From positions 1-9,767 of the forward strand of contig JASMDC010000068.1 in assembly GCA_030753015.1 (NCBI GenBank): DNA of 9,767 nucleotides, read 5' to 3'. The position numbers were made by a program, and so were the translations under genes. This document shows, piece after piece, positions 4,373 through 8,200 of this stretch. The notes under the pieces were generated by a model. That model saw nothing but the letters and a program-made list of their open reading frames with translations. It was not told where the DNA came from and did no database searches. This DNA is from Candidatus Undinarchaeales archaeon. GTDB taxonomy: Archaea; SpSt-1190; JASMDC01. How positions within the stretch are numbered: the stretch's first letter is position 1; every line of letters begins with the position of its first letter.

Positions 4373-4500
4373 TGACGTAGAACGGCCGGATGTTGCCGAC
4401 GCGGCTCCGCCAGGAGATATCAAGCAATGTTCAGGAGGCGCAGCTCATGCCTTTCGGAGGTGTGTTGGTGGGTCGCGGAACGGCGAGTGCAGTTATTATC
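4373..4500 (+). repeat. Structured intergenic repeat, copy 1 (subtype A)
   Basis: Shares with the other copies the box AACGG (4381-4385), then GACGCGG, CTCCGCC, ATCAAG and GTGTTGGTGG. The 58 bases at 4413-4470 align without gaps to 8001-8058 of copy 4 with 43 identities. Central stem: CCGACGCG (4396-4403) pairs with TGTGTTGG (4461-4468), then after one G-G mismatch CTCCG (4405-4409) pairs with CGGAG (4455-4459). The 3' arm GCGAGTGC (4483-4490) is identical to that of copy 4, but its 5' partner is not present, so this copy appears partly decayed. About ten bases of the small side hairpin seen in copies 2 and 4 are missing. This repeat is the main content of the 434-base gap 4261-4694. Confidence 0.7.
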
Positions 4501-4640
4501 CGCTTGCCCCCCGTGTCACGTCTTCCATCACGTTGTTTCTAGTTCGGAGTAATTGAGGAAGGACACGTATCTCATTAAAGTTGGAGTTGATCCTGCTTTT
4601 CCGATTCCATTCGAGAATAGTGCACCGCGCCGATGTCACC

Positions 4641-4694
4641 TATAAGAAAGAAGACCTATGTAGCATACGGACCTTAAAGAAAACGGTGATAATA
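4641..4694 (+). promoter_or_regulatory. Promoter and GGTGAT ribosome site of the zinc-ribbon gene
   Basis: TATAAG (4641-4646) is a plausible TATA element, predicting transcription from about 4670 and a short leader. GGTGAT (4685-4690), complementary to the archaeal 16S rRNA 3' end, is four bases before ATG 4695. It fixes that start over upstream in-frame codons. Between copy 1 and this promoter (4501-4640) I see no gene or clear signal. Confidence 0.55.
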
Positions 4695-4976
4695 ATGGTA
4701 AAAAGATATGCCGAATGTAAAGTGTGCAAATCTAGCAATTTTCTAAATTACGCTGGTCTTTGTAAGAAATGCAATCGAGAAGCTGCAGGTTCATTGATAA
4801 GAGAAGCACTTGCTGAAAAACAGCAAAAACAAATCGCAGCTCAAGAAGAACGCGAGAAACAGAAGATCGAAGATCTCAAGCAAGAACCTGCATCGGATGA
4901 AACGACCGATGAGGAACCTGATAGCAAGGATGATGAGAAGAAAGAGAACGAGGACGATCCCAAAGAGCGGAAATAG
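4695..4976 (+). CDS. Small zinc-ribbon protein with a charged, coiled-coil-like tail
   Basis: 93 residues. The N terminus has two CxxC knuckles, C8-x2-C11 and C23-x2-C26, spaced eleven apart (CKVCKSSNFLNYAGLCKKC). They should bind one zinc as a ribbon. Residues 30-64 are rich in Glu, Lys and Gln and probably helical or coiled coil; residues 65-93 are almost wholly acidic and lysine-rich and likely disordered. The start is set by GGTGAT four bases upstream. A/T use is clearly higher than in the flanking GC-rich genes, suggesting foreign origin, and the gene sits between copies 1 and 2 of the structured repeat. No family is recognised; a nucleic-acid or protein adaptor role is a guess from the ribbon alone. 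Confidence 0.75.
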   Translation: MVKRYAECKVCKSSNFLNYAGLCKKCNREAAGSLIREALAEKQQKQIAAQEEREKQKIEDLKQEPASDETTDEEPDSKDDEKKENEDDPKERK

Positions 4977-4978
4977 GA

Positions 4979-5113
4979 TCGGATAACGGCCAAGGACTCA
5001 CCGACGCGGCCCCGCCTAGCGATTCTCAAGCGACGTTAGGATCAACACACTTCAGGAGAAACGGGGCCGTGTTGGTGGAGCGACGAAGGCGCGTAACGGC
5101 TTGGGGTATCCGA
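4979..5113 (+). repeat. Structured intergenic repeat, copy 2 (subtype B 5' half, subtype A 3' half)
   Basis: Outer stem TCGGATA (4979-4985) / TATCCGA (5107-5113); second stem CCAAG (4990-4994) / CTTGG (5100-5104). The central stem is 14 uninterrupted pairs with two G-T wobbles: CCGACGCGGCCCCG (5001-5014) with CGGGGCCGTGTTGG (5062-5075). Within its loop, GATTCT (5021-5026) pairs with AGGATC. A small hairpin GCG...CGC follows near 5080-5092. The 42 bases from 5003 match copy 3 at 40 positions; the 3' part GTGTTGGTGGAGCG matches copy 4. The outer stem starts three bases after the zinc-ribbon stop codon. Together with the next entries this accounts for the 301-base gap 4977-5277. Confidence 0.8.
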
Positions 5114-5204
5114 CGCACCGGCGACTCCACACCATCCTCGAGCGTCATTCGATCCGAGGGCAGGTCGATAAGGTATTAGCCGGCGTGTGGATGGAAGGCT
5201 GAAG

Positions 5205-5245
5205 GCCTGGAGCTGGATACCCTTGTGTTAGCTTACAAGGGAAAT
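5205..5245 (+). other. Hairpin CCCTTGT/ACAAGGG, possible decayed IS200/IS605-type end
   Basis: CCCTTGT (5220-5226) pairs perfectly with ACAAGGG (5235-5241) around GTTAGCTT. The preceding TGGAGCTGGA and one reading frame (PCVS just before the loop) repeat features of the tnpB end at 22-69, as if a similar right end had lost about 20 internal bases. No transposase sequence remains. Alternatively it is a bidirectional terminator between convergent genes. The rest of 5114-5204 shows nothing I can name. Confidence 0.3.
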
Positions 5246-5264
5246 GAATAATTATTAAAATAAG

Positions 5265-5277
5265 TGTTTATATAGAC
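5265..5277. promoter_or_regulatory. TATA-like element at the 3' end of the HEPN gene
   Basis: TTTATATA (5267-5274) matches the archaeal TATA consensus on the plus strand, and TATATAAA is read on the minus strand. On the plus strand it would start a transcript near 5297, antisense to the end of the HEPN gene. On the minus strand it would run toward repeat copy 2. It may equally be chance in AT-rich DNA. Confidence 0.25.
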
Positions 5278-5658
5278 CTATTCAAGAATATCCTTCACTC
5301 CCTGAAGAAATTTTTCTGCCTTAGTAATCCATCTATTTGCATCCGACTTGCTCATTTCCTCCCCTTTGTAATCAACCTTGCTCTTCGTTTGCACACCATC
5401 TTGGACAATCTTCTTCAGGCTTGCACATGAAGAAGGGATCTTATTTGTAACAAGGAGCTCATGAAAGAGCTTAATGGCCTCATCGTGGCGTGCTGCGTTC
5501 TTTCTGAGAAATTTCATGGTCAGTGCATCGTTTGCTCGAATAATGGAATGAATGCACTGGGCAACGATGACCGTATATTTCTCACGAGCATCTGAACTCT
5601 CGTTGATAAGCCTTCTCGCGCTGATAAGCCAGAATTCGGCTTCACGAAGCTCTTTCAT
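5278..5658 (-). CDS. HEPN-domain protein, putative RNase toxin of an MNT-HEPN pair
   Basis: 126 residues, the usual size of a stand-alone HEPN protein: a four-helix bundle that, in toxin members, is a metal-independent RNase working as a dimer. HEPN features are helix 2 AQCIHSIIRANDALTMKFL (33-51), then R52-KNAAR-H58, which fits the R-x4-6-H active-site pattern, HDEAIKLFHELLV (58-70), and near the end KVDYKGEEMSKSDANRWI (94-111). The start ATG 5658 overlaps the end of the MNT gene by 17 bases and is preceded by GAGGAGTGGT, so the two are translated together. In known pairs the nucleotidyltransferase AMPylates the HEPN protein near the active site to silence it, typically on a tyrosine. The R-x5-H spacing with a second arginine before the histidine is slightly unusual. 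Toxicity is inferred. Confidence 0.85.
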   Translation of the reverse strand: MKELREAEFWLISARRLINESSDAREKYTVIVAQCIHSIIRANDALTMKFLRKNAARHDEAIKLFHELLVTNKIPSSCASLKKIVQDGVQTKSKVDYKGEEMSKSDANRWITKAEKFLQGVKDILE

Positions 5659-6637
5659 ACATTACCACTCCTCGGTTCAGTTCTTCTTCGAACTCGGTCA
5701 TATTAATTTCTTTACTGGATGACATGATCAAGGGTATTACTCGTATTCCAGTTCTTTCAAGCGTGCTACGGGCAATGGTATCTATACGCGATCCCAGCTT
5801 CTTGTCATCAATGAACACAGCAAGGTCTACATCGCTCTTCAGATTTTCCTCACTTCTGGCAACGCTTCCGAAGAGGATGATTCTTCTTACTCCTTTCAAC
5901 ACTTTAGCCTTTTGTGTAAAGAATTCAGCTGCCATTCTGTGTGGCGACGTTCTGATATCAAGGATCTTCTTTACTTCCTCGAGAAATGGTGTCGAGCTGT
6001 TCAACTTGCATGCTACTGCTTGTCCGATTCTTTCTTTCATTACAACGCCGGCGGAATACAGGTCCTCGACAAAGCGCCAGACCGTAGGATATGGTTTGTT
6101 GGATAGCTTGGCAAGCTCTCTGATAGTAAATGATCTTGAGGGGTACTTGAGAAGTAGGATGACGACCTCTTTGTGCTTGGATATCTTGGCTAAGGTCGTA
6201 TGACGCAGGTATTTGCTCGTCTTCTCCTCCCTTCTCCTATTCACATTACTCTGTATTCTTGTATGGATCGAGATGCGAGGCGTCTTCATCTCTGCCTTCA
6301 CAGATAAATAGACCTCATTGTCCACTTCCATCAATCCAAGTCCGAGACCTTTGATAATTGATCGTATTCGATTTGAGGAGCGGCTTGAAGGTAATGCAAG
6401 ATAGGAAAAATGGGAACCGGCAGAATGATCGATGGCCCTGGCGATTCCCGAATGGATGTTACCCATCCCGCCCTTCACTTCTATCATGATAATGCTGTCG
6501 TCCTTTGAAGCCACGATGTCGGGAATACTACCTTTTACCTTCACCGTTTCCATTATCGAGTGACCAGTGCTGACAAGATACTCTTGCACTATCTCCTTTA
6601 CTTCTTGTTCGGCAAGAGTATAATTTAGGTTTTTCAT
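5642..6637 (-). CDS. PD-(D/E)XK nuclease-like / winged-helix / MNT nucleotidyltransferase fusion
   Basis: 331 residues in three parts. Residues ~8-115: a restriction-endonuclease-like fold with I38-P39-D40 and, after a strand, E53-V54-K55, the PD-(D/E)XK active site. Residues ~152-213: a winged helix, FTIRELAKLSNKPYPTVWRFVEDLYSAGVV (170-199) being the helix-turn-helix. Residues ~248-331: a minimal nucleotidyltransferase with G257-S258 and D269-x-D271 (FGSVARSEENLKSDVDLAVF), two of the metal ligands; a third aspartate is not obvious. MNT beside HEPN is a known toxin-antitoxin layout in which MNT is the antitoxin, and an attached winged helix fits an autoregulator. The added nuclease-like domain is unusual to my knowledge. 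Start ATG 6637 is about 26 bases after a TATA box, so the message is probably leaderless. Clearly AT-rich against the flanks. Confidence 0.85.
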   Translation of the reverse strand: MKNLNYTLAEQEVKEIVQEYLVSTGHSIMETVKVKGSIPDIVASKDDSIIMIEVKGGMGNIHSGIARAIDHSAGSHFSYLALPSSRSSNRIRSIIKGLGLGLMEVDNEVYLSVKAEMKTPRISIHTRIQSNVNRRREEKTSKYLRHTTLAKISKHKEVVILLLKYPSRSFTIRELAKLSNKPYPTVWRFVEDLYSAGVVMKERIGQAVACKLNSSTPFLEEVKKILDIRTSPHRMAAEFFTQKAKVLKGVRRIILFGSVARSEENLKSDVDLAVFIDDKKLGSRIDTIARSTLERTGIRVIPLIMSSSKEINMTEFEEELNRGVVMYERAS

Positions 6638-6682
6638 ATTGGATAATATTATCCATTACTAAAATATATAGTTATCCATTTC
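6638..6682 (-). promoter_or_regulatory. Promoter and palindromic operator of the nuclease/MNT-HEPN operon
   Basis: On the minus strand the TATA element is TATATATTTT (about 6661-6670), placing initiation near 6640, at the start codon. TGGATAATATTATCCA (6640-6655) is a perfect 16-base palindrome between the TATA box and the ATG. Its half-site TTATCCATT (6649-6657, plus strand) recurs at 6672-6680 on the far side of the TATA box, 23 bases away. A dimer bound here would cover the whole core promoter. The winged-helix domain of the first gene is the obvious candidate binder. Confidence 0.65.
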
Positions 6683-6714
6683 CAAATCAGAATATGGTTG
6701 GCTGATATCAGCTA

Positions 6715-6857
6715 ATGGTCGAGCCCTCCCCAGACGCGGCCCCGCCTAGCGATTCTCAATCGACGTGAGGATCACAAGTCTTCAGAAGATGCGGGGCCGT
6801 GTACACGAAGGGCCGCGCCACGCGGCCCGAAGTCGGGGACGTTATGTTTTGTTATGT
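6715..6857 (+). repeat. Structured intergenic repeat, copy 3 (subtype B)
   Basis: Central stem of 12 pairs: ACGCGGCCCCGC (6734-6745) with GCGGGGCCGTGT (6791-6802). Loop hairpin GATTCTC (6751-6757) / GAGGATC (6767-6773). Second stem TCCCC (6727-6731) / GGGGA (6835-6839). The side hairpin is replaced by a perfect 8-pair stem, GGGCCGCG (6810-6817) / CGCGGCCC (6821-6828). GTTATGTG (6851-6858) repeats the end of copy 4, but a 5' partner is not clear, so the outer boundary is uncertain. Copies 2 and 3 are direct repeats about 1.73 kb apart enclosing the MNT-HEPN module. This copy is the main content of the gap 6638-6946. Confidence 0.75.
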
Positions 6858-6902
6858 GGCCCACTACCTCTTCTTTACACAACCCCGGTGATTGTGATTA
6901 CG

Positions 6903-6936
6903 ACGTATGCCTACCGGAAGCCTTCCGATGATACGT
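6903..6936. other. Two-level inverted repeat downstream of the MerR gene
   Basis: ACGTAT (6903-6908) pairs with ATACGT (6931-6936), and inside it CGGAAG (6915-6920) and CTTCCG (6922-6927) form a palindrome around one base. It ends ten bases after the MerR stop codon. It could protect or end that message, but no T-run follows on the minus strand. Confidence 0.35.
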
Positions 6937-6946
6937 GGGCTTCGGA

Positions 6947-7795
6947 CTATCCAGTCTCCGGCGTCTCCACTACGGGGAACTGGACCTCTGTCATGAGCTC
7001 TTCCTCGGGGACCTCGTTGGGGTTGTTGATGTACAGCTCGCGGTACGGAAGTACGAGCGTCAGGCCCTTCTCGGCAGCGAACTGCAAGACCGCGGCGTAC
7101 GCCTTGTCGATGTCCCGATAGGGCCCCTTGTGGATGACCGATATGGCCCTTACCCGCGGCAGCGTCTTGATCTCGATGGAGGGTTCGTCGACCGTGATCC
7201 CTCCGGAGATGGGCACAGCCACCCCGATGTCCGCATCGGTCTCCTTGTACTCCTCATCATGACCTAGCATCATGACGGGGCCCGTTATCCGCACGTTGTT
7301 ACGCTGGTTGTCGGGGTTGAAGACCACGTCCATCAGCTCCTCGGCGAGCTTCCCGACGGTCGTCTCGTAGCTCCCTTTTTCGCGCTTGCTCACGACCCGT
7401 GTCTCGGGCACGTCCTTAATTACCGGTTCTGGTACCTTCATGTTCAACACATCCAGCATCCGGTCGGTGGACGACAGTGCCTCCTTGACATCCTCTAGCC
7501 GTTCGAGCTCCGCACCGAGTTCCGTGCGCCTCTGGCGGCGCAGCACCTCGAGCACGTCCCACTCACTCCGCTCCTCGGCGTCGAGGAACGTCGCGATCTC
7601 GTCCAGGCCGAATCCCAGCCGTGCGAGGTTCTTGATCCTGATCCCCCGTTCGATCTGAGGGATCGTGTAATACCGGTACCCTGTGAAAGGGTTCTTTGCC
7701 GCCGGCTCCAGGAGGCCTTTCCTGTCGTACAGGCGCAGCGCCTTCTGTGAGAGGCGGGTCATCAGCGAGAACCTGCTGATCGGTATCTTGTCCAC
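6947..7795 (-). CDS. MerR-type regulator with GyrI-like ligand-binding domain
   Basis: 282 residues with the GTG start at 7795. Residues 2-71 are the MerR winged helix: ISRFSLMTRLSQKALRLYDR then KGLLEPA, GYRYYT and a second helix RIKNLARLGFGLDEIATFL. Residues ~80-118 form the coiled-coil dimer helix (RRQRRTELGAELERLEDV). Residues ~126-277 match the GyrI-like/AraC effector-binding fold of BmrR, BltR and TipAL: HKGPYRDIDKAY (222-233), PYRELYINNPNEVPEEELMT (250-269) and EVQFPV. Such proteins bind bulky, often cationic, compounds and switch on efflux genes; no transporter lies beside this one, so its target is elsewhere or itself. In-frame GTG 7801 and TTG 7810 are also possible; 7795 gives the standard MerR beginning. 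GC-rich like the main chromosome. Confidence 0.88.
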   Translation of the reverse strand: MDKIPISRFSLMTRLSQKALRLYDRKGLLEPAAKNPFTGYRYYTIPQIERGIRIKNLARLGFGLDEIATFLDAEERSEWDVLEVLRRQRRTELGAELERLEDVKEALSSTDRMLDVLNMKVPEPVIKDVPETRVVSKREKGSYETTVGKLAEELMDVVFNPDNQRNNVRITGPVMMLGHDEEYKETDADIGVAVPISGGITVDEPSIEIKTLPRVRAISVIHKGPYRDIDKAYAAVLQFAAEKGLTLVLPYRELYINNPNEVPEEELMTEVQFPVVETPETG

Positions 7796-7820
7796 TGACA
7801 CGATGCACAATGATTATGAG

Positions 7821-7840
7821 GGATTTTAAGTATATGAACC
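7821..7840 (-). promoter_or_regulatory. Probable promoter of the MerR gene
   Basis: Read on the minus strand, CATATACTTAAAAT (about 7823-7836) is a TATA-like element whose usual spacing puts the start of transcription at about 7800-7808, so the message would be leaderless and begin at one of the GTG/TTG codons there. The spacer has the normal archaeal length, so there is no sign of the stretched spacing used by bacterial MerR promoters. From 7841 to 7958 I see no gene or clear signal. Confidence 0.4.
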
Positions 7841-7958
7841 GTCGCAGTCTGCCCCGGGGGAGGGTTCTACCACGCACCCGCCTGCATACATCCCATGAAT
7901 GATGCCGAGCACGTTGATGAAGTGGTGGACCTGCGGTAGTGGCTAGAGTGGGGGCAAG

Positions 7959-8100
7959 GTCACATAACGGAAAAGCACTCGCCTGACGCGCCTCCGCCTG
8001 GAGATCTCAAGCATCGTTCAAGGAGACTGGCTCACGCCTCTCGGATACGTGTTGGTGGAGCGCTGAAGGCGCGGAACCGCGAGTGCGGTAGTTATGTGAC
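7959..8100 (+). repeat. Structured intergenic repeat, copy 4 (subtype A, best preserved)
   Basis: Bounded by perfect 10-base inverted repeats GTCACATAAC (7959-7968) and GTTATGTGAC (8091-8100). Inside is a second perfect stem GCACTCGC (7975-7982) / GCGAGTGC (8079-8086). The central stem GACGCG (7985-7990) / CGTGTT (8048-8053), with flanking CC/GG pairs around a bulged T, is followed by two mismatches and TCCG (7993-7996) / CGGA (8042-8045). A side hairpin is GCGC-TGAAG-GCGC (8060-8072). This is the reference copy for the element's limits, 142 bases. It is the main content of the gap between the MerR start and 8201; 8101-8200 shows no gene I can support. Confidence 0.8.
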
Positions 8101-8200
8101 GAGACAATACAAAGTATGGTCGAGCTTGAGTTGAAAAAGGCTAGAATACCACGGCTCAAGAATCGTGCCACTTTTACAGTCAATTCCTTTAACGATTTTT

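Follow-up and report, generated by a model that had tools for sequence, protein, structure and literature searches.

The window analysed here is the whole of contig JASMDC010000068.1 (9,767 nt) of assembly GCA_030753015.1, a metagenome-assembled genome (MAG) of a Candidatus Undinarchaeales archaeon (SpSt-1190). It carries five structured intergenic repeats on the forward strand with short genes between them. We list the repeats as integron attC sites, which they almost certainly are, together with the cassettes that this reading predicts:

4374–4505, + strand: attC site 1; R'' ending GTAGAAC at 4377–4383, R' GTTATTATC from 4492
4978–5097, + strand: attC site 2; R'' GGATAAC, L'' GGACTCAC; 5' and core parts intact, L'/R' arm absent
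5088–5237, + strand: attC site 2b; R'' GCGTAAC, L'' GGGTATCC, L' GGATACCC, R' GTTAGCT from 5227
6707–6857, + strand: attC site 3; R'' CAGCTAAT, R' GTTATGT at 6841 and again at 6851
7959–8101, + strand: attC site 4; 9-bp R stem, 6/4-nt spacers, 8-bp L stem GCACTCGC/GCGAGTGC, R' GTTATGT at 8091
4492–5227, + strand: predicted cassette A, with limits inferred from R' cores; ORF 4692–4976 (94 aa), ending just 5' of site 2
5228–6851, − strand: predicted cassette B; two-gene pair, 5642–6637 and 5278–5658
6852–8091, − strand: predicted cassette C; MerR HTH and GyrI-like regulator (Pfam), 6947–7810

Four of these repeats had been recognised in a preliminary description of the sequence, and they do lie where it placed them, in one shared orientation and clear of supported genes. 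The total is nevertheless five, with the additional site at 5088–5237, and the ends given earlier have been moved to the R'' and R' boxes, as listed (the 3' limit of site 2 lies at about 5097, and that of site 3 at 6851 or 6857). In the core, 40 of 42 bases are identical between copies 2 and 3, a count that we confirmed by eye, and a repeat search of the window aligned these two copies at 87% identity across 70 nt, copies 1 and 4 at 76% across 83 nt, and the 3' parts of copies 2 and 4 at 88% across 33 nt. The chimeric look that had been described for copy 2 is also visible; it arises because the 3' arm of site 2 has been lost and the site runs straight into site 2b. Inspection of the sequence downstream of L'' GGACTCAC revealed no pairing partner ahead of site 2b.

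We built a covariance model (R1) from fifteen copies, all taken from this one genome, and searched the whole 3.85-Mb assembly. The four original copies score far above chance, with E-values from 4.5e-15 (site 1, 73.4 bits) through 1.6e-22 (site 3) to 1e-28 (site 4). Site 2b reaches 2.8e-7 although it lay outside the training set, and its L boxes pair at 8 of 8 positions. This search, which the preliminary description had itself proposed, recovered 24 sites at E<1e-6 in the source genome, bearing out the claim of a structured, multi-copy intergenic family. Nine of the 24 were not used in training (four on contig C87, two on C29, one each on C70 and C24, and one in the window). Rfam returned no match at the gathering threshold, solely unrelated weak matches at E up to 10, and so the comparison with that database could not reveal what the repeats are.

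The published architecture of attC sites comprises RYYYAAC and GTTRRRY boxes, L''/L' boxes, short spacers and a variable loop (PMC3053210, PMC7370490). Full sites in this genome follow the same order: R'' closes with AAC or with a triplet that differs from it by one base, a spacer of 6 nt separates it from L'' (8 nt), 82–121 nt then lead to L' (also 8 nt), and a second spacer of 4 nt, shortened in some rows with gaps, precedes an R' starting with GTT. Once poorly resolved ends were excluded, GTT was present in all 22 tabulated R' boxes, and AAC at most R'' boxes. The strict GTTRRRY form occurs in just 4 of the 22, most of the others reading GTTATGY, GTTATAC or GTTGTAC; the invariant core is therefore kept, and the full RYYYAAC/GTTRRRY consensus is followed loosely. 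The L''/L' boxes are complementary and lie inside the R boxes, forming 8 bp with spacers of 6 and 4 nt, within the limit of 10 nt. The inner part holds a GACGCGGCYCCG/CGGGGCCGTGT stem and a small hairpin in the right arm. Site length runs from 117 to 158 nt (median 136), and 11 of 25 sites are longer than 141 nt, the upper end of the usual attC range of 55–141 nt (PMC7370490).

RNAalifold, run on the site alignment, recovered the inner stem alone, probably owing to several misaligned right arms, and the structure was therefore set by hand and its pairs counted. In the L stem, 84.8% of alignment cells are paired and compensatory changes occur in six of the eight pairs, while the structure as a whole is 83% paired, against 37–42% after a slide of one to three columns. 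The non-training sites behave alike: 47 of 64 L positions are paired against a shuffled mean of 36.5, a value equalled in 47 of 40,000 shuffles. The unpaired nucleotides number six in the left arm against four in the right, and the L stem has no classic single extrahelical base. The bottom-strand DNA fold of site 4 contains both the R and the L stems (z −2.25); one of the two bottom strands folded had an MFE no better than shuffled sequence (z −0.25).

Across the genome at least 24 sites at E<1e-6 are spread over eight contigs, mostly in same-orientation arrays with a spacing of about 0.4–2 kb. C53, C87 (including one weak site) and the window each hold five, C26 three or four, and C23, C24 and C29 two each. 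Seven clusters contain two or more attC sites separated by under 4 kb, in the same orientation and with different genes between them, the definition that we applied to cassette arrays without a neighbouring integrase (CALINs).

By the established integron mechanism, the crossover in an array would fall inside R', and the R' that closes cassette n−1 would supply the start of cassette n, while the R'' of site n would have evolved as the partner of that cassette's own start in the circular form. On this reasoning, R''(n) should match R'(n−1) better than the R' of its own site. We compared the six variable positions beside AAC/GTT and found that R''(n) and R'(n−1) match on average at 4.12 of 6, against 2.92 across all pairs, a value reached by 4 of 50,000 permutations; matches within a site (3.0) or with the next site (3.07) were at chance. 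As the idea arose from the C53 and window arrays, the cleaner figure is that for the arrays outside this initial observation (C87, C26, C29 and C24), where 29 of 50,000 permutations reach the linkage value. Within the window, the predicted start of cassette C, GTTATGTGGCC at 6851, matches the R'' of site 4, GGTCACATAAC. A lone attC at C29:179.1–180.3 kb has an exact 10/10 match to its R'', GTTATACGGCGT, 1,055 bp upstream; the site and this upstream core bracket a single 325-aa ORF, and the segment is a solitary cassette inserted away from any array. Taken with the linkage, this boundary indicates indirectly that the segment between R' cores would be the mobile unit.

The box anatomy, the covariation in the L stem, the same-orientation arrays with differing genes and the R''(n)–R'(n−1) signature together make us highly confident that the repeats are the attC sites of integron cassette arrays lacking a neighbouring integrase. 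They thus belong to an already named element, the integron being a known system that collects genes as small cassettes moving into and out of a chromosome, and the suggestion that the family was undescribed does not hold. On the basis of what is known of integrons, each attC would extrude its bottom strand as a folded hairpin with R and L stems and unpaired spacers, a tyrosine recombinase would cut beside the G of the GTT core and exchange one strand, and the segment bounded by two successive R' cores, a gene with its attC, would leave or enter as a circular cassette. The linkage test checks cassette identity with neither an integrase nor a published attC model, and it could be reused for integrons that standard models miss.

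No IntI match exceeded the cut-off in this 98.9%-complete genome, which thus yields no complete integron. A convincing attI-like core upstream of the first site was found at none of seven of the eight loci, the eighth being the lone C29 cassette. A search with PF00589 identified five loci, none of which reached the IntI cut-off (0/5). Three of the recombinases are near-complete, two in tandem on C31 and one, interrupted by one stop, on C76. Like IntI (TIGR02249; PDB 2A3V), they have SAM-like and catalytic domains; they differ in skipping IntI profile positions ~182–232, where the IntI insertion sits (65 residues in 2A3V against 23 here). The C31 pair scores 220–234 against the 265-bit cut-off of TIGR02249. 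On these two grounds, the missing insertion and the scores, we class the arrays as CALIN-type. For a 452-aa protein, no named relative was found. The C31 genes (L054:2–2571), which resemble XerA and IntI, also encode about 80 extra N-terminal residues and lie at the contig end.

Could such recombinases move the cassettes themselves, using as substrates attC sites that are longer and branched and carry an accessory hairpin? This proposal is compatible with the attC identity of the repeats and draws on the C31 pair and the C76 gene, on an internally deleted remnant of the same family 1.5 kb past the last C53 attC, and on one recombinase that, among solved structures, best matches V. cholerae IntI4, ahead of XerA. 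Yet all three near-complete proteins lack the insertion, a domain required for IntI activity in published work (PMC3053210), and, the C53 fragment aside, none shares a contig with an attC site. We regard the proposal as unlikely; action of the resident recombinases on the attC sites is possible but unsupported. Were it true, it would define a distinct archaeal integron branch that gathers even core transcription factors such as the TATA-binding protein (TBP). The simplest reading attributes the formation of the CALINs to an IntI that has since disappeared, falls within a gap in the assembly or works from a different genome. Assembly gaps are plausible, since C26 begins inside an attC and a C31 recombinase lies at a contig end.

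An archaeal rpoB scores above its cut-off in the genome, and its nearest named relatives, at 60–66% identity, come from MAGs labelled Altiarchaeota, Micrarchaeum and SpSt-1190; a search of the assembly yielded no archaeal SSU rRNA. The MAG measures 3.85 Mb, compared with 0.6–1.1 Mb in all nine class relatives, a difference that could reflect an enlarged genome or a composite bin.

Bacterial integron contigs misbinned into an archaeal MAG would be in keeping with the contamination estimate of 5.01% and with the GC content of the C87 array (0.46 against 0.56–0.60 elsewhere). However, C29 (229 kb), with three attC sites, carries an archaeal FEN1 (430.8 against a cut-off of 352) and a replication factor C small subunit (465 against 303), so the attC family is not confined to contigs that might be contaminants but is also present on an archaeal chromosome. 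One attC family is moreover shared by all eight contigs, and the TBP encoded by a C53 cassette is 85% identical to another TBP (C44) of the same MAG. Misbinning is accordingly very improbable, and integron cassette arrays can be placed on the chromosome of a little-studied archaeon whose nine class relatives gave no match.

Those relatives, nine genomes of the same class or phylum, were searched with the covariance model and yielded nothing, a result that says little about diverged attC sites because the model derives from a single genome. The same single-genome model found nothing in six named archaeal genomes (several apparently identical), and no empty site turned up in any relative among the genomes searched. 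A 27-base pattern was absent from viral contigs, and BLAST of two attC sites against 72,556 plasmids gave no match.

Many alike hairpin-forming intergenic copies in one genome, with none found in relatives, would also be expected of a non-autonomous transposable element or palindromic repeat (MITE/REP-like) in which each copy moves by itself. Against this, the copies are arranged in same-orientation arrays, separated by genes that differ from one interval to the next, the lone C29 copy has its own core as a boundary 1 kb upstream, and R'' matches the R' of the previous copy instead of its own, which a self-moving element does not predict. We know of no other repeat class that predicts such linkage, which largely refutes the transposable-element explanation and leaves it scarcely tenable. 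A structured RNA or cis-regulatory element (terminator, riboswitch or small RNA) transcribed downstream of genes would suit the strong helices with compensatory changes and the position of site 2, which lies immediately next to the stop codon of the ORF upstream, but Rfam gave nothing beyond the weak matches above, the flanking genes vary in kind and strand at each copy and a linkage between neighbouring copies would be meaningless for an RNA, so that we find this explanation hardly credible at all.

The 94-aa protein of cassette A appears zinc-ribbon-like (CxxC) by eye and has no Pfam match. In cassette B, 5642–6637 encodes a nucleotidyltransferase domain (Polbeta/NTP_transf_2) with a weak winged-helix match in Pfam, and 5278–5658, judged by eye and with no Pfam match, is probably its HEPN partner. 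Nucleotidyltransferase and HEPN proteins commonly pair as toxin–antitoxin systems, and we infer that cassette B is of this type. The 331-aa product of 5642–6637 appears by eye to have a restriction-endonuclease-like N-terminus as well, the winged helix is a weak TrmB match, and the gene overlaps the probable HEPN gene. The other arrays encode ParE, Phd-YefM, MazE, a nucleotidyltransferase, RHH, a weak GNAT match and a cupin. Such contents are typical of published cassettes (PMC9668308). On C53, a gene for TBP, one of four in the genome, lies as a cassette between two attC sites (L047:9702–10286). We found no published report of a TBP cassette; here a gene for a basal transcription factor is present as one.

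Archaeal integrons were already described in 2022, when Ghaly et al. reported them in 75 archaeal MAGs from nine phyla, mostly as CALINs and with a maximum of 107 attC sites in one MAG (PMC9668308), and the present arrays belong to that known kind. They resemble the published archaeal CALINs in that an archaeal MAG carries clustered attC sites but no IntI, the sites are separated by short ORFs, the cassettes are of toxin–antitoxin and acetyltransferase types, and the attC sites of the genome are similar to one another; they differ in their deep archaeal lineage, their longer branched sites and the TBP cassette. With bacterial attC sites (aadA-type and Vibrio cholerae repeats) they share the AAC/GTT boxes, the L''/L' stem, short spacers, a variable inner region and a cassette boundary at GTT, whereas here only a minority of R' boxes have the strict GTTRRRY form, the spacers measure 6 nt on the left and 4 nt on the right, and the right arm bears an extra hairpin (GGGCC..GGCCC). 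The interest of these arrays lies in their lineage, their long branched attC sites, the TBP cassette and a genome with no recognisable IntI. As a separate observation, C29 also holds, at 219820–226200, four tandem paralogous ORFs of ~470–560 aa that start MTYDLDLDGAYGxADxADGYAQAEDLSxKN.
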